Source: Salinivenus iranica
Lineage (GTDB): Bacteria > Bacteroidota > Rhodothermia > Rhodothermales > Salinibacteraceae
Direction: 5' to 3'
Assembly (NCBI GenBank): GCA_002894665.1
Contig: NCRB01000030.1
Location: 1-36,491 of the forward strand
Length of the DNA stretch: 36,491 bases
Shown here: positions 2,123 through 31,117 of the stretch, piece by piece
How positions within the stretch are numbered: position 1 is the stretch's first letter
Layout: each line of letters starts with the position of its first letter
Translations under genes and position numbers: made by a program
The notes under the pieces: model-generated
Database searches by the model: none
Told to the model about the DNA's origin: nothing
The model's input: only the letters and a program-made list of their open reading frames with translations

Positions 2123-2869
2123 ATGGGAAAGGATGGGTTGGTTGATGTCAGACAGAGACGACGGGAACTCGAAGGGACGCCTGTCAAAACGATGCTCCAG
2201 TGGACCTGGAACACCTTCGGCGACCAGGCCGCGGCGACCTCGTCCTTCCAGACGCAGAGCGTCCCGCTGCTGCACCTAATCTCGCAGCATGTGCCAGACC
2301 TTCCGATTCTGTTTCTGGATACCGGCTTCCACTTTCCGGAGACGCTCGAATTTCGGGACCAGCTCATTGACGAGTTTGGTCTGAACGTGCGATCGCTGGA
2401 GCCGCGGCTGGGCCACGACGGGTTTCGGGAGAAATACGGCAAACTCCACCAGCGAGACCCGAACATGTGTTGCTACCTCAACAAGGTGGAGCCGCTGGAG
2501 GACGCGATGGAAGAGTACGACGCGTGGGTGAGCGGCATTCGGCGGGATCAGACGAAGAATCGGGCGGGGACGCCGGTGCTGCAGCGGGAAGACGACGGGA
2601 CCCTCAAGGTGTGCCCGATGGTCGAGTGGACGAGTCGGGACGTGTGGACGTACATCGACGAACATGATCTCCCGAAGCATCCGCTCCTGGAAGAGGGGTA
2701 TCTCAGTATTGGGTGTGCCCCCTGCACCCAGGCGCCGGGCGAGGGGGATGGAGAACGGGGGGGGCGATGGTCGGGAAGCGACAAAACCGAGTGTGGACTC
2801 CACACGGACTTTGGCGAAGACAGTGAGAACGATACGGAAGCCGCGAATTCAGAAGGCGACGAGACATGA
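2123..2869 (+). CDS. cysH: Assimilatory adenylylsulfate (APS/PAPS) reductase, CysH family
   Basis: Reduces activated sulfate to sulfite in the cytoplasm. The 248-residue protein has the adenylyl-sulfate binding core (TFGDQAAATS about 31-40, LDTGFHFPET about 65-74). It has the paired cysteines CC116/117 and C198-x-x-C201 that ligate a [4Fe-4S] cluster in APS-type enzymes, and the catalytic ECGLH motif at 223-227. The CC...CxxC pattern points to APS rather than PAPS as substrate. An insertion rich in Gly/Arg (about 205-220) precedes the catalytic cysteine. The ATG at 2123 has AAGGAG about 11 bases upstream. The stop overlaps the next start (ATGA), so the two genes are translationally coupled. 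No other sulfate-assimilation gene is nearby, and a UDP-sulfoquinovose synthase lies downstream, so this copy probably feeds sulfite to sugar sulfonation. Confidence 0.92.
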   Translation: MGKDGLVDVRQRRRELEGTPVKTMLQWTWNTFGDQAAATSSFQTQSVPLLHLISQHVPDLPILFLDTGFHFPETLEFRDQLIDEFGLNVRSLEPRLGHDGFREKYGKLHQRDPNMCCYLNKVEPLEDAMEEYDAWVSGIRRDQTKNRAGTPVLQREDDGTLKVCPMVEWTSRDVWTYIDEHDLPKHPLLEEGYLSIGCAPCTQAPGEGDGERGGRWSGSDKTECGLHTDFGEDSENDTEAANSEGDET

Positions 2870-3843
2870 TGCGAATTCTGGTCACGGGCGGATGCGGATA
2901 CATTGGATCTCAGCTCCTGCGGGACCTCCCGGAGCATTTTGAGGAGGAGATCAGTGTCCGCGTTCTGGACAATTTGCAGGGCGGTCGTCCGGAGGCGTTG
3001 ATGGACCTTCCGGACGACTGCGAGTACGAGTTTATAGAGGGGGACGTGCTCGATCCGTCCGTCCAGCGGGCGGCGCTCCGCGGTGTCGATGCGGTCATTC
3101 ATCTCGCCGCCATTGTCCAGACGCCGCTCAGCTTCGACGATCCGAACTGGGTCGAGCAGGTCAACCACTGGGGCACGTCCCACCTGCTGGAAGCGTGCCT
3201 GGAAGAAGGCGTCGAGGATTTCATTTTCGCCAGTAGTGCGGCCGTCTACGGGCCGGGCGGGCCCTACGACGAAGAGGGTCCGTGCGACCCGATGGGCGCC
3301 TACGCGGAATCGAAGCAGAAGGCGGAGGAGGCCGTGCGCTCGGCCGGGCGGCGTGGATTTCGCGCAACGGTGTTGCGGCTGGGCACGGCCTACGGACAAG
3401 CGCCGGTCACCCGGTACGAGGCGGTTGCCAATCGATTTGCCCTTCTGGCTGGGACGGGGCGTCCCCTGACGATTTTCGGGGAGGGAACGCAAACGCGTCC
3501 CTTCATCCACGTGCGAGATGCCAGCGACGTGCTGTGCTGGACGCTCTCGCACCGGGACAAGACCGCGGGACGGACGCTGAACGCGATGGAGCAGAATGCC
3601 TCGGTCGTCAACCTCGTGGAGGCCATCAAGGAGTCGCGTCCGAGCGTTGACAGTCGACGGACGGAACAGGATATCCGGACCCACCTCTCGTTTGAACTTG
3701 ATGGTAGCCGACTCCGATCGTTAGAATGGGAGCCGTCTGAGAACCTTGCGGATGGACTCGGCGAACTTATTGGTCGGTTGCAAGGGTTTTCGTCCCCGTC
3801 TCATCTCAAAAGCGACTCCTTTGAAAACGCCTATTTTGGGTAA
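2866..3843 (+). CDS. NAD-dependent epimerase/dehydratase (extended SDR)
   Basis: A 325-residue nucleotide-sugar enzyme of the extended short-chain dehydrogenase family. The N-terminal Rossmann motif is TGGCGYIGS (about 7-15). The catalytic set is SSAAVYG (about 123-129) and YAESK (Tyr-x-x-x-Lys, about 147-151). GEGTQTRPFIHVRD (about 204-217) is the usual substrate-side motif. Two ATGs lie back to back at 2866 and 2869; the first overlaps the cysH stop. Substrate and product cannot be told from sequence; a GDP- or UDP-hexose epimerase or dehydratase is equally possible. Coupling to cysH and closeness to the sulfoquinovose synthase suggest the same sugar pathway. The last ~25 residues (Ser/Phe-rich) are unlike the family and may be appended. 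Confidence 0.88.
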   Translation: MMRILVTGGCGYIGSQLLRDLPEHFEEEISVRVLDNLQGGRPEALMDLPDDCEYEFIEGDVLDPSVQRAALRGVDAVIHLAAIVQTPLSFDDPNWVEQVNHWGTSHLLEACLEEGVEDFIFASSAAVYGPGGPYDEEGPCDPMGAYAESKQKAEEAVRSAGRRGFRATVLRLGTAYGQAPVTRYEAVANRFALLAGTGRPLTIFGEGTQTRPFIHVRDASDVLCWTLSHRDKTAGRTLNAMEQNASVVNLVEAIKESRPSVDSRRTEQDIRTHLSFELDGSRLRSLEWEPSENLADGLGELIGRLQGFSSPSHLKSDSFENAYFG

Positions 3844-3860
3844 AGAGGGGCACCCCTTTC
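3842..3860 (+). terminator. Possible terminator hairpin after the epimerase
   Basis: At the stop codon, AAAGAGGGG, CA and CCCCTTT can fold with one bulged A. No clear T-run follows, so intrinsic termination is uncertain. Confidence 0.3.
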
Positions 3861-3904
3861 AAGGTCTTGCGTAATTGATAGTTGAAAGCGTAGCTCCCCA
3901 CAAC

Positions 3905-4062
3905 GCCGGGGACGCAAGCGGTCCCCGGCTATCTATTCGTCGGTCCCTTCGGGACGAACCACGTCTCCGCAAGGAGACCGACGAAGGAATAGCACTCTGG
4001 AAAGCACTCGGTCCCTTCGGTCCCAGCGCCCGAAACTGGAAGCGAAGCGGACGTTTCGGGCG
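3905..4062. repeat. Cluster of perfect hairpins in an 800-base gene-free gap
   Basis: Several perfect stems sit side by side. GCCGGGGAC (3905-3913) pairs with GTCCCCGGC (3921-3929). GTCCC-TTC-GGGAC spans 3943-3955. GTCTCC-GCAA-GGAGAC, with a GNRA-type loop, spans 3963-3978. An alternative, larger fold pairs CGTCGGTC (3938-3945) with GACCGACG (3976-3983) and extends to CTATT/AATAG. CGCCCGAAAC (4027-4036) pairs with GTTTCGGGCG (4053-4062). A variant of the ACTCGGTC...TCCCAGCG module found elsewhere in the window lies at 4006-4028. No ORF here looks real. It could be a structured RNA or another palindromic mobile repeat. I see no promoter. Confidence 0.55.
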
Positions 4063-4204
4063 TGTTTCGAAGCAAACATTGGGTCTGTTTTGGATTTCCT
4101 TCACGCGCATGCGTCACCCGTCGGGACGAACTGCTCTTCGCCTCCGGTGTAGGTTTGCGAGTTTGTCGGCAGGACACCCTGCTTTTTCAGACTCTCATCG
4201 TCTG

Positions 4205-4400
4205 GATAGAAGTCGTTCCGGCCTCGAAGAAAATGCCGCCCGGACGGCTGCAAAGGCCCGAGCGTCCGGAAATTCTTCGCTGTCTGAGCGACCCTGGGAG
4301 CGAGTTCGAAGAATTTCAGCGAAGCCGGAGCAGACGTCAGGCATTTTCTTCGCAGCCGTGATCTTTTTGGTTCGTTTTTGCATCTAGGCAAAAATGAACG
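4205..4400 (-). repeat. Foldback (MITE-like) repeat, copy 1
   Basis: A large palindromic element. GAAGAAAATGCC (4226-4237) pairs with GGCATTTTCTTC (4340-4351). Nested inside, GAAATTCTTCG (4269-4279) pairs with CGAAGAATTTC (4307-4317), and CCGGACG (4240-4246) pairs with CGTCCGG (4263-4269). Beside it a hairpin GTTCGTTTTTGC / GCAAAAATGAAC (about 4369-4398) lies within a conserved stretch GTGATCTTTTTGG. The reverse complement matches 27890-28115 over nearly its whole length, with stem changes that are compensated on the other arm. It encodes nothing recognisable. Confidence 0.7.
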
Positions 4401-4517
4401 TCCATGGCTGGAAGGAATCGGCTCGCCTCGTTTGTAGGCAACAAGTCCTCAGAGAAAACGATGGAACGTACTGCGATTAAACGTAAAGTGTCACAGAGGA
4501 GACCGAAAAATAGAAGC

Positions 4518-4580
4518 ACCGAAAGCTTTCGGTAAACGAAGCGCTGGGAGCGTTAGCGACCGAGTAGTCTCCGGGGTGTG
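4518..4580 (+). repeat. Perfect palindrome and GCTGGGAGCG module upstream of the CapD-like gene
   Basis: A perfect 16-base palindrome (ACCGAAAGCTTTCGGT, 4518-4533) is followed by GCGCTGGGAGCG (4541-4552) and GCGACCGAGT (4556-4565), then CTCCGGGGTG. The latter is the reverse complement of the module inside two array hairpins at 32150-32187 and 33169-33206. It ends 65 bases before the start codon of the next gene, so it may be read into that gene's leader. Confidence 0.5.
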
Positions 4581-4644
4581 GACGTTCCGGGCAAGGCCGG
4601 ATGTTCGTCATCAAATCTCGAAATTGAAAAATTCCAGCTCTCTC

Positions 4645-5715
4645 ATGGCCAATAATCTGTGGGCGGACAAGCGAGTCCTGATCACAGGCATCTGTGGAAC
4701 GGTCGGGACCCGTATCTTCGAGCAGCTCTCGAAGCGGGACCCGGAAGAGATTGTTGGAATTGACAACAACGAAAGTGAGCTCTTCTTCTTCGAGGAGAAG
4801 TGCCGAGGGGACGACTGCGTAAATCTGCACCTGTGTGACGTGCGGGACCGGCAGAATCTGAAACGGCGGATGAAGGGGGTCGATATCGTTCTCCACACAG
4901 CGGCGCTGAAGCACGTCATGCTTTGTGAGAAGTCTCCGGGGGACGCCGTGCGCACAAACATCGACGGGGTGCGGAATGTGGTTGCGGCGGCGATGGAAGC
5001 AAATGTTGAGCGTGTCTTGTTCACCTCCTCGGACAAGGCGGTGAACCCGACCAACGTGATGGGCACCTCGAAGCTCATGGGCGAGCGGCTCCTGACCGCC
5101 GCAAACGCGCGCAAGCGGGATAAGGACGGCCCGATCTTCGCATCCACCCGCTTCGGCAACGTCCTCGGCTCGCGGGGCTCGGTGATCCCGATTTTTAAGG
5201 AGCAGATTGCGGAGGGCGGGCCCGTGACGCTGACCGATCCCCGGATGACACGCTTCATCATGACGTTGAAGGAGGCGGCGCGCCTCGTGCTCGACTCAGT
5301 CTTTTTGGCGAAGGGCGGGGAGGTGTTCGTGACGAAGATGCCGGTCGTCCGGATCGAGGACCTCGCCCACGTGATGATTGAGGAGCTTGCACCCGTACAT
5401 GGCTACAGCCCCGACGCAGTAGAGGTCGAGGTCATTGGGGCGAAACCGGGGGAGAAGTTCTACGAGGAGCTGATGAACAACGAGGAATCTCGGCGCACCG
5501 TCGAGATTCCGGAGTATTTTGCCATCCTGCCGGCCTTCAAGTCACTCTACCACGACATCGACTACAGCTACCCCGGCATGAACGGCGTCGGCGTCGATGA
5601 GGTGTACAACTCTTCGACCGAAGAGCCGATGTCGAGGGAGGAACTGCGAACCTACCTGCACGAGAAGAACCTGCTCGAACCTCACGAAACAGAACCCCAG
5701 AAAGCACACTCATGA
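4645..5715 (+). CDS. CapD/PseB-like UDP-N-acetylhexosamine 4,6-dehydratase (soluble form)
   Basis: Predicted to convert a UDP-N-acetylhexosamine (probably UDP-GlcNAc) to the 4-keto-6-deoxy sugar. The 356-residue protein lacks the N-terminal membrane region of long CapD/WbpM proteins. It shows a Rossmann motif TGICGTVGT (about 14-22), TAALKHV (about 89-95), SSDKAVNPTNVMGTSKLMGE (about 128-147, with the family's MxxxK in place of YxxxK), RFGNVLGSRGSVIP (about 168-181) and GAKPGEKFYEEL (about 271-282). The frame is open back to 4576, but ATG 4645 directly before the Rossmann fold fits the family better. The stop overlaps the next start by four bases (ATGA), so it is coupled to the sulfoquinovose synthase. 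Confidence 0.88.
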   Translation: MANNLWADKRVLITGICGTVGTRIFEQLSKRDPEEIVGIDNNESELFFFEEKCRGDDCVNLHLCDVRDRQNLKRRMKGVDIVLHTAALKHVMLCEKSPGDAVRTNIDGVRNVVAAAMEANVERVLFTSSDKAVNPTNVMGTSKLMGERLLTAANARKRDKDGPIFASTRFGNVLGSRGSVIPIFKEQIAEGGPVTLTDPRMTRFIMTLKEAARLVLDSVFLAKGGEVFVTKMPVVRIEDLAHVMIEELAPVHGYSPDAVEVEVIGAKPGEKFYEELMNNEESRRTVEIPEYFAILPAFKSLYHDIDYSYPGMNGVGVDEVYNSSTEEPMSREELRTYLHEKNLLEPHETEPQKAHS

Positions 5716-9830: not shown

Positions 9831-9940
9831 AAAGTTTTTGATCTAGTAAATTAATAAGCGTAACACCAGTCGAACTATAAAAATATGAACAACATGAAAA
9901 ATGTAAGGAGTATGTGTAAAAACACAAGTGTTCTTTCTAC

Positions 9941-10500
9941 AAGCCGGTGCTAAACCCTCGTTTTTCAGACGAGCCGCTTTAGCCTTTATGTTCAGGGGAA
10001 CGAGATTTTGTGCAGAGAGCGAGTTCCCCTGGAGAACCGATGAGCAAATACCGGTGCGGTGCCCATACGATGTACGAGATCAAGTATCATCTGGTATGGG
10101 TGAAGAGGGACCGGCATCAAGTACTGACGGGGGAGGTGGCCCATCGGGCCCGCGCGTTGGTTCGGCAGACATGCCTCATCAGTCTGGACGTACGGATCGA
10201 AAAGGGGCTTGTGAGCAACATGTGCATAAATCCTCCGGCCGTCAGTCCTTCAAAATTGATGCAGAGGATAAAAGCTCGGTCGTCGCAAAATCTGCTGCAG
10301 GAGATTTCCATCTTCAGAAGAGGTATTGGGGAAGGCACTTTTGGGCCGGGGATAAATTTTTCGCGACGAGCCACCGGGTGACCGACGAGCAGATAAAGGA
10401 CTACATCGACGGTTACGACGAGAAGCCGGCCGATCCGGAGTTTGCGATAGACTAATGACTCTTTAGCCGGCTTTTAGCCGGATAACGACCCCCCAACTTC
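9941..10500 (+). mobile_element. Decayed IS200/IS605-type element
   Basis: Both ends keep foldbacks typical of Y1-transposase elements. At the left, GCTAAA (9949-9954) and CTCGT (9957-9961) pair with ACGAG (9969-9973) and TTTAGC (9978-9983). At the right, CCGGC (10467-10471) and GCCGG (10477-10481) close a five-base loop. The transposase between them is broken (next entry). The element is GC-richer than the glycosyltransferases on both sides. Outer limits are approximate. Confidence 0.7.
10040..10455 (+). pseudogene. tnpA: IS200-like Y1 transposase TnpA, multiply frameshifted
   Basis: From ATG 10040 the frame starts as an IS200 transposase (MSKYRCGAHTMYEIKYHLVW, then VLTGEVAHRARALVRQ). The HUH motif (HVH, about 10220) lies in a different frame. 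The next block (PPAVSPSKLMQRIKARSSQ) is back in the first frame, and the C-terminal part (LQKRYWGRHFWAG, then TDEQIKDYIDGYDE) is again in the other frame, ending at 10455. At least three frame changes are needed, and the stretch around the HUH motif is shortened. The catalytic tyrosine region cannot be assembled into one product, so the gene is dead. Confidence 0.75.
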
Positions 10501-27889: not shown

Positions 27890-28115
27890 AGCAATTGCCC
27901 GGTTTCAAACAGGGGCGTTCATTTTTCGCTGGATCGAAAAACGAACCAAAAAGATCACGGCTACGATGACTCGGGCTGACGTCGGCTCCCCCTCCGCTAA
28001 AATCATCGAAACTCGCTCGCGGGCTCGCACCCCAGGAGTACTCGGTCACTATGTTCCCAGCGCTCAGACACCGATGATTTTGGCCGCTTCGTGTCCGCCT
28101 CCGTCCGGGCGCCCG
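27890..28115 (+). repeat. Foldback (MITE-like) repeat, copy 2
   Basis: Inverted partner of 4205-4400. GTTCATTTTTCG and CGAAAAACGAAC pair (27919-27948), followed by CAAAAAGATCACGGCT shared with copy 1. The outer stem is GATGACTCGGGC (27966-27977) with GCCCGACTCATC (about 28110-28121, one mismatch). The inner stem is AAAATCATCG (about 28000-28009) with CGATGATTTT (about 28072-28081). Copy 2 has an extra insertion with the CACCCCAGGAGTACTCGGTC module at 28029-28048, shared with the hairpin array. It fills most of the 450-base gap between the GT2 gene and the next epimerase. Confidence 0.7.
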
Positions 28116-29667: not shown

Positions 29668-31029
29668 ATGTCTCTTTTAAGCTCAGAGAAGGAACCGGCG
29701 ACGGATGTAGTATCGACAGAGCATCCGTCGACATCCGACCGGGGGAAGGATACCAAAACAGAAGGGCCAGTTCTGGTCTCCGTCCCGCTCCCTCCGGATC
29801 GGGTGATTCGGACACGGAAGGTGTGGTCAAAGCTGCTCCATGCGGCCGCCCTGCCGCTGATTGTGGGCCTTTCCATCTGGGCGCTTGAAGGGCAGTTCTC
29901 CATGGGCCTGTTTCAGCGCGCGTGGCCGGTGATGGCCCTGCTGGCCGTGGCGTACCTGACGGCCTGGCGCCTGAGCTCCTCCTTCGAACGATTTCCTTTT
30001 CTCAACCAGTTCGAGGGCGCGTTGGTGAGTGTGGGTACCACCCTGGTGCCGGTCGGGCTCGTCCTGGCGACACTGCCCTACTCGCCCATCAATACCCTGG
30101 CTCTCGTGGCGACAGGAGGGAGCATCGTCTGGTACCTGGCCGACAAATTCCTGCACCGGTACCGGATGTCCCAGCTCGTCGTCTTGCCCGGCGGCGTCAC
30201 GAGTCGGTTGCTCTCCATTCCAGAGGTGTCCGAAGCGAAGCGCGAACGACTCCTGTCGGGCACCCTCGACGGCATTGTCACGGACCTACACACGTCCCTG
30301 TCGGAGTACAAAGAGCTGTTGGCGGACTACAGCATGAAGGGGCTGCCCACTTACCACGCCGGGTACCTGTACGAGCTCCTTACGGCCCGCGTCCTTTTGG
30401 GGGCCTCGTGCAAGCGGAGCGTCGACGTGCGCAAGCGCCGGTACTACCCGTACGTCAAGCGAGGCATGGAGCTGTTCATTGTCCTGTGTACGCTTCCCAT
30501 TACAGGTACCATCGCGGGACTGACGGCCCTTGCGATCCGGCTCGAATCAAAAGGCCCTCTCCTGTTCTGGCAGGAACGCATCGGGCGCAACGGCGAACGA
30601 TTCCAGATGGTGAAGTTTCGGAGCATGTACGCCGGCAACGAGGGGGAGGACGACGATGTCTTTGCGGAGGAGGGAGACGATCGGGTGACGACTGTGGGCC
30701 GCATCATCCGAAAGCTTCGCATCGACGAGCTTCCGCAGTTCTGGAACGTGCTGAAGGGAGAGATGAGCCTGATTGGGCCTCGGCCCGAGCAGGTGGGCCT
30801 CGCGGAGGACTTTTCCGATGAGATTAAACTCTACGAATACCGTCATCTGGTGCGGCCAGGCATCACGGGGTGGGCCCAGGTGCTCCACGGGTACGCCGCC
30901 GATGAAGATGAGACCCGGCGCAAGTTGGAGCACGACCTCTACTACGTCAAGCACCAGTCGGTGACCCTGGACCTTCTGATTGTATACCTGACGGCAAAAA
31001 CGATTCTCACGGGGTTTGGCGCCCGGTAG
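29668..31029 (+). CDS. Polyprenyl-phosphate sugar-1-phosphate transferase (initiating, WcaJ/WbaP family)
   Basis: Starts glycan assembly by moving a sugar-1-phosphate from a UDP-sugar to undecaprenyl phosphate at the inner membrane. The 453-residue protein has a charged N-terminus, four membrane helices (about 52-70, 82-98, 110-135, 140-158) and a cytoplasmic linker. A further helix (about 270-290) leads to the catalytic domain: KGPLLFWQERIGRNGERFQM (about 295-314), VKFRSMYAG, LRKLRIDELPQFWNVLKGEM-type region with DELPQFWNV (about 354), SLIGPRPEQV (about 368) and RPGITGWAQV (about 396). The sugar cannot be decided between hexose and HexNAc. It lies 88 bases before a GalE-like gene. Confidence 0.93.
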   Translation: MSLLSSEKEPATDVVSTEHPSTSDRGKDTKTEGPVLVSVPLPPDRVIRTRKVWSKLLHAAALPLIVGLSIWALEGQFSMGLFQRAWPVMALLAVAYLTAWRLSSSFERFPFLNQFEGALVSVGTTLVPVGLVLATLPYSPINTLALVATGGSIVWYLADKFLHRYRMSQLVVLPGGVTSRLLSIPEVSEAKRERLLSGTLDGIVTDLHTSLSEYKELLADYSMKGLPTYHAGYLYELLTARVLLGASCKRSVDVRKRRYYPYVKRGMELFIVLCTLPITGTIAGLTALAIRLESKGPLLFWQERIGRNGERFQMVKFRSMYAGNEGEDDDVFAEEGDDRVTTVGRIIRKLRIDELPQFWNVLKGEMSLIGPRPEQVGLAEDFSDEIKLYEYRHLVRPGITGWAQVLHGYAADEDETRRKLEHDLYYVKHQSVTLDLLIVYLTAKTILTGFGAR

Positions 31030-31117
31030 CCCTGGAGGGTCCAGGGCTGCTGTTCGGTTGGCGCATCTTTCTCTCCAGTTCGCCTTCTTCGTATTCTGTT
31101 CTAAATGCTCTTCGTAC

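Follow-up and report, generated by a model that had tools for sequence, protein, structure and literature searches.

The window analysed here is the whole 36,491-nucleotide (nt) contig NCRB01000030.1 of Salinivenus iranica, which is contig C56 of a 3.4-Mb genome in 133 contigs (G000 in our numbering). Its intergenic stretch 3844-4644 lies between an open reading frame (ORF) for an NAD-dependent epimerase (2866-3843) and a capD-like polysaccharide gene (4645-5715, stop codon included), and carries a dense cluster of hairpins at 3905-4062. When the stretch was used as a query against 60 related genomes, it gave separate match blocks and no single conserved unit. The outer hairpins, A and D, enclose a palindromic spacer and a 36-bp repeat, B; A starts 61 nt past the stop codon of the epimerase ORF, and about 580 nt separate the cluster from the capD-like gene. 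The cluster is very probably one tail-to-tail dimer of repetitive extragenic palindromic (REP) sequences, of the kind known as bacterial interspersed mosaic elements (BIME) or REP doublets forming hairpins (REPIN), from a REP family at home in the halophilic relative Longimonas. From this we infer a mechanism of movement and an origin by transfer or as a remnant.

REP A (3905..3932, minus strand) comprises an ATAG foot and the hairpin CCGGGGAC-loop-GTCCCCGG, and its foot is the same as in the Longimonas-type copies of A. REP D has its hairpin GCCCGAAAC-TGGAAGCGAAGCGGAC-GTTTCGGGC at 4028..4061 on the plus strand, and the ATA of its presumed ATAG foot lies at 3989..3991 on the same strand, parted from the hairpin by B. 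Both were scored with a covariance model (R1) of 23 Longimonas-type REPs from which the window sequence was excluded; the 23 rows were hand-picked from 165 stem-finder results, most of them not REPs of this family. The two best matches of R1 in the 36-kb window were D (40.5 bits, expectation value (E) 9e-9) and A (25.2 bits, E 1e-4), and by comparison of sequences both are shown to match the Longimonas-type family model. With A on the minus strand, D on the plus strand and the feet inside, the two form a tail-to-tail dimer.

The hairpin of D also varies among relatives as a paired stem. Compared with locus L121, the loop of D is nearly unchanged and the stem differs by paired changes. D is of the type of the second hairpin in Longimonas-type dimers, with almost the same loop (TGGrAGCGAAGCGGAC) but another stem, CCCGAAAC/GTTTCGGG in D versus CCCGGGAC/GTCCCGGG. 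In an alignment (A2) of the window with 17 of the 23 rows of R1, from which six longer-looped or near-duplicate rows were dropped, both-sided changes were seen in 5 of the 9 pairs, a number reached by 10 of 500 shuffles, and the covariation score was above all 500. The 23 relatives without the window likewise have both-sided changes in 5 of 9 pairs (2 of 500 shuffles).

The family is abundant in two relatives, Longimonas halophila (G014; placed in Rhodothermota, Rhodothermales) and the related metagenome-assembled genome (MAG) CAJXLX (G021), here called the Longimonas-type genomes. At no more than 3 mismatches, the A hairpin was found 35 times in the MAG, 7 times in L. halophila and once in the window's genome; the other 24 of the 27 family genomes had none, and a reversed-pattern control gave 0. 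In a survey of 84,980 species genomes, which may leave out records of the window's own genome, the A hairpin (A or G at one loop position) occurred only in L. halophila (3 stretches) and the MAG (20). R1 was run over the 27 family genomes with up to 150 candidates scored per genome and a threshold of E <= 0.1. The search resulted in at least 71 matches in L. halophila and at least 121 in the MAG; among the scored candidates, the window's genome gave D and one weak match, G005 and G025 gave one weak match each, and 22 of the 27 gave none. From an even draw of 60 genomes of the order, in which Longimonas-type genomes were not drawn, 14 had an R1 match at E <= 1, the window's own included, and the matches other than those of G000 and G067 (31.2 bits) had an E of 0.08 or worse. 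A search of the own genome with 3880-4000 returned the query itself and short weak matches, nothing else. A short GTAG-tagged hairpin, GTAGCCCTGGA..TCCAGGGC, lies elsewhere in the window at 31026-31050 and scores 17.5 bits with R1.

The pairing of A with D recurs in these relatives. Among the fetched loci, 30 of the 38 A-like places outside the window have a D-type foot and left arm 10-29 nt further on, at no more than 2 mismatches. These 30 dimers have the order and orientation of the window's dimer, with the feet inside, and a few of the partners are truncated or decayed. In the second hairpin of Longimonas-type dimers, foot and left arm read TTAG- or GTAG-CCCGGGA(T/C).

An earlier note on this DNA had listed perfect stems of 9, 5, 6 and 10 bp together with one large stem, and all of them are present. 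The 9-bp stem pairs 3905-3913 with 3921-3929, the 5-bp stem GTCCC-TTC-GGGAC occupies 3943-3955, the 6-bp stem GTCTCC-GCAA-GGAGAC occupies 3963-3978, and the 10-bp stem pairs 4027-4036 with 4053-4062; an 8-bp stem, CGTCGGTC/GACCGACG, pairs 3938-3945 with 3976-3983. The region 3895-4070 (176 nt) folds at -82.7 kcal/mol compared with -63.9 +/- 4.3 kcal/mol in 200 dinucleotide shuffles (z -4.38), none of which was as good. Within it, the spacer of the dimer (3933..3988) forms a rod. The optimum for 3928-3994 is one extended rod closed by an AACCA loop (-39.8 kcal/mol as RNA, -23.9 as DNA), whose outermost pairs, GCTAT/ATAGC, are formed by the two REP feet. The two alternative folds proposed in the earlier note are possible on paper as far as their stems go; however, the two small hairpins, which are able to coexist with a 7-bp outer stem in a three-way junction, reach -25.5 kcal/mol in that arrangement and -17.6 kcal/mol by themselves. 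Over 3928-3994, structure prediction gives one dominant rod, with a pairing probability of 0.99 for its apical helix and about 6e-6 for the small hairpins, and no two-state fold. Two comparable, mutually exclusive folds were ruled out on these values, and under the folding model there is no switch in the middle region at equilibrium.

The sole other strong copy of the spacer in the 27 family genomes lies in G012 (C93:21173-21253) and was matched with a model built from these two copies. It adjoins CCCCGGCTAC, which resembles a REP foot with its arm, and is located upstream of a D-Ala-D-Ala ligase gene, not of capD.

Repeat B (3992..4027), a 36-bp unit, separates the presumed foot of D from its stem. 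Joining its flanks places GGAATA directly before GCCCGAAACTGG, which yields ATAG-CCCGAAAC, as in an ordinary REP with its foot next to the stem. Because the joined flanks restore this arrangement, B would have been inserted after the dimer had formed. B is a 35-36-bp repeat whose 24-base core (no more than 3 mismatches) occurs at 17 places of the own genome, the window's included, with 0 for a reversed control, and tandem arrays of it were found in three genomes of the genus (G000:C8, G003:C1 and G007:C3). Of 47 places matched in the Longimonas-type loci that were examined, 7 have B within a D-type REP loop. In G011 it sits within a different hairpin repeat, as seen when L127 is set against L003 of G007. 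One copy is located 181 nt upstream of the Y1 match of an IS605-type tnpA at G000:C90, for which reason this tnpA was weighed as a possible mover of B. A second, diverged copy occupies 4541-4578 (minus strand) of the same intergenic stretch and is inverted relative to the first. Contig ends of the window's genome (e.g., C8:1-132, C53:1-37, C61:32-69 and C81:38-75) lie in one dispersed B-containing element, with three tandem copies in C8, which suggests that the assembly breaks at a multicopy element.

For the enzyme, the Pfam profile Y1_Tnp was searched over the 27 family genomes and gave 22 matches, of which the two Longimonas-type genomes account for six. One type of small protein is represented by three of the latter (L158, L151 and L150). 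The motifs DHVH, WQ and YVACQK(E/K)HH, i.e., Y-x3-Q-x2-HH, were read in the translations of the intact L158 and L151, whereas L150 is broken by an internal TGA that precedes the Y motif, and its reading ends at that codon. R1 REPs flank each of the three genes left and right at distances of up to about 350 nt; some of these were training rows of R1 and match by construction, and many copies lie elsewhere in the genomes. Scanning the other 19 Y1 loci with R1 resulted in one-sided REPs at L160 and L163 and none at the remaining 17, including L149, which has the same Y motif. Against NCBIfam, the Longimonas-type Y1 proteins scored 59-62 bits with transpos_IS200 (cut-off 55) and 22-28 bits with REP_Tyr_transpos (cut-off 80), and the closest chains of known structure carry transposase names, e.g., 2fyx, 2xm3 and the ISHp608 transposase 2a6m. 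The single tnpA genes at L151 and L150 are surrounded by REP subfamilies that differ in stem and loop length (GTAG-CATGGGGC, GTAG-CGCGGGAC and GTAG-CCGGAGAC).

The window's genome has two Y1 matches, the IS605-type tnpA on C90 and a decayed IS200-like insertion sequence (IS) element within the window (9928-10480), the latter an incomplete transposase match with hairpin-like ends. At the C90 locus (G000:C90:7720-9084, L040), TnpB may be interrupted; downstream of tnpA come a short, putatively TnpB-like start and, after it, an ORF that presumably resembles a LAGLIDADG homing endonuclease. Elsewhere in the window's genus, L154 (G009:C1, at about 71 kb) is a Y1 match with the motifs NHMH and YIRHNP and with GTAG-CGTCGGGC..ACCGACGC hairpins on both sides. 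This hairpin pattern was found at three places in the 300 kb of G009 sampled, all within about 0.5 kb of the Y1 match, a count that says little because an altered-foot control matched four places.

In Pseudomonas and Escherichia, REPINs are non-autonomous hairpin dimers that go with a REP-associated tyrosine transposase (RAYT, or TnpA-REP), a low-copy Y1 gene flanked by them. The Longimonas-type genomes resemble these systems in having hairpin dimers and a low-copy Y1 gene flanked by them; the window's genome differs in lacking the gene, and the Longimonas-type Y1 proteins differ in scoring below the REP_Tyr_transpos cut-off.

PMC3733652 describes the GTAG REP superfamily as short hairpins, rich in GC, whose foot is an unpaired tetranucleotide; they form tail-tail dimers with variable, often self-complementary spacers, and DNA insertions occur between the partners. 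The present family shares with that description the short hairpin, which has its foot in A and in the Longimonas-type copies, the tail-tail dimer, the self-complementary spacer and the insertion between partners. However, the feet here are GTAG, ATAG and TTAG, the presumed foot of D in the window is split off by B, and in place of many dispersed host copies the window's genome yielded one copy of A and, among the scored candidates, two R1 matches. That paper reports GTAG repeats in Proteobacteria, Cyanobacteria, Chloroflexi and the Planctomycetes-Verrucomicrobia-Chlamydiae (PVC) superphylum, and only CGTC repeats in Bacteroidetes; Salinibacter and Rhodothermus are absent from its main text. 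Among the listed titles and abstract openings of open-licence papers on REPs, REPINs and RAYTs in Rhodothermota, Salinibacter, Rhodothermus, Longimonas and Bacteroidetes, and on TnpA-REP with subclass 1.2, none describes this family; the window would contain a stray dimer of an apparently undescribed one. Characterised TnpA-REP systems are summarised in PMC6006769, which gives subclass 1.2 of the Y1 TnpA proteins as having HUH, WQ and Y-x3-Q-x2-HH motifs and as generally lacking typical terminal secondary structures. L158 and L151, with DHVH, WQ and Y-x3-Q-x2-HH, resemble this subclass, an assignment made by motifs and not by a tree. They depart from it in that their genes, like that of L150, are flanked by genome-dispersed hairpins, the hairpin absence in subclass 1.2 being general and not absolute in that account.

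By analogy with TnpA-REP systems, the Longimonas TnpA probably recognises foot and hairpin on single-stranded DNA and moves dimers: it would bind the two together, cut beside the hairpin and carry the dimer elsewhere. For the lone dimer, whose genome showed no cognate gene, the favoured reading is that of an immigrant or a remnant. The copy in the window would have come by transfer from a Longimonas-like donor or would be the last remnant of an older population, with B inserted afterwards, and it would be unable to move because its enzyme is absent. The earlier note's suggestion of a mobile palindrome is supported in part, in that both A and D belong to a REP family common in Longimonas-type genomes; movement itself was not observed.

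Several observations weigh against reading the cluster as a REP dimer of this family. As it stands, D is preceded by CAGC and not by a GTAG-type foot, and ATAG appears only upon joining the flanks of B. The spacer of the window's dimer measures 56 nt plus B, compared with 10-29 nt in the Longimonas-type dimers, and no match to it was found in either Longimonas-type genome. All cells of the alignments pair (161 of 161 in A2, with slid controls at 52.2% or less, and 197 of 197 in the 23 relatives alone), but this complete pairing is partly circular because most rows came from a finder that demands stems and the window's hairpin was picked as a hairpin; the rows from other sources are L121, found by sequence similarity, and L160, found by loop motif. 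Further pair types are unexceptional, with shuffles as high in 167 of 500 cases for A2 and 188 of 500 for the relatives alone. In its own genome the family is not repetitive, with one copy of A and two R1 matches among the scored candidates, and the Y1 searches found no cognate REP transposase there; the property of being a repeat is therefore borrowed from the relatives. Finally, the zeros of the R1 family search are zeros among scored candidates only, because the number scored was capped and A itself went unlisted in the window's own genome, and for A the pattern search at no more than 3 mismatches is the better witness.

Other explanations were weighed on the same evidence. That the hairpins are chance palindromes in a variable, GC-rich polysaccharide region has a negligible probability: GC-rich intergenic DNA is prone to hairpins, but the shuffle test (z -4.4), the empty reversed-pattern controls and the R1 E-values of 9e-9 and 1e-4 speak against chance, which the copies in relatives already refute. 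The earlier note also considered a regulatory RNA, which would here be a riboswitch-like leader of the capD-like gene toggling between two folds. The region does fold significantly better than its shuffles and does lie upstream of that gene, though some 580 nt away. Yet a leader of this kind is very improbable, since one rod dominates, relatives carry A and D as interspersed repeats, and no Rfam family reached its gathering score in the whole window. A permissive Rfam scan of 3700-4800 gave three sub-threshold matches, the best being Acido-Lenti-1 (E 0.43; 17 bits against a cut-off of 37), and these were rejected. The conservation that the note proposed to look for next to homologous genes, upstream of capD-like genes in particular, did not appear: a capD-like protein at E <= 1e-60 (40% identity) was found in 1 of the 26 other family genomes, R1 finds nothing there, and the only strong relative of the spacer stands beside the D-Ala-D-Ala ligase gene. 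A capD-linked cis-regulator was rejected on these grounds.

The remaining two alternatives concern the present role and the history of the dimer. Whatever their origin, the hairpins may have been co-opted as a terminator or as a 3'-end stabiliser of the epimerase mRNA, which we regard as conceivable but unlikely. The start of A close behind the epimerase stop codon and its listing as a terminator-like site on the plus strand favour such a role, and PMC3733652 presents mRNA stabilisation or transcription termination by REPs as a published hypothesis. Against it, terminator-like sites are barely above shuffles (3 found; mean 1.2, standard deviation 1.0), and this explanation competes with present-day neutrality only, not with the origin of the hairpins. 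Today they would most likely be neutral DNA behind the epimerase gene, and any role as RNA would be limited to ending or protecting the epimerase transcript. The dimer might instead be an old resident, inherited vertically from an ancestor of both genera and lost elsewhere. The spacer relative in G012, of the same genus, suggests former dimers in the genus through the adjoining CCCCGGCTAC. However, the 12 other genomes of the genus hold no copy of A at no more than 3 mismatches and no strong R1 match among the scored candidates, and many Longimonas-type copies have exactly the same 25-nt A hairpin as the window, pointing to a short separation; vertical inheritance appears rather improbable.

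Taking the cluster as a REP dimer of Longimonas type, a wider picture can be proposed tentatively, as plausible without being probable. In it, Longimonas would have built REP-mobilising machinery on a subclass 1.2-like Y1 transposase, and its dimers would enter a neighbouring genus that lacks the enzyme, carrying the mobile repeat B, which would settle in hairpin loops and feet as a parasite of a parasite. If the reading as a REP dimer is right, it would extend GTAG-type REPs to Rhodothermota and would point to a REP mobiliser in a transposase subclass that is said to lack terminal hairpins as a rule. The lone dimer in an enzyme-less genome would then be well suited to the question of REP movement from one species to another, and annotation would lose one false riboswitch candidate.

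The same intergenic stretch holds a further element, a structured repeat of about 200 bp at 4209-4417, which is also present at 27910-28028 on the minus strand of the window. Of 59 other genomes that were searched, 17 have copies of it, and G045, from another family of the same order, is among these. In G011, repeat B lies inside a copy of this element (L127).
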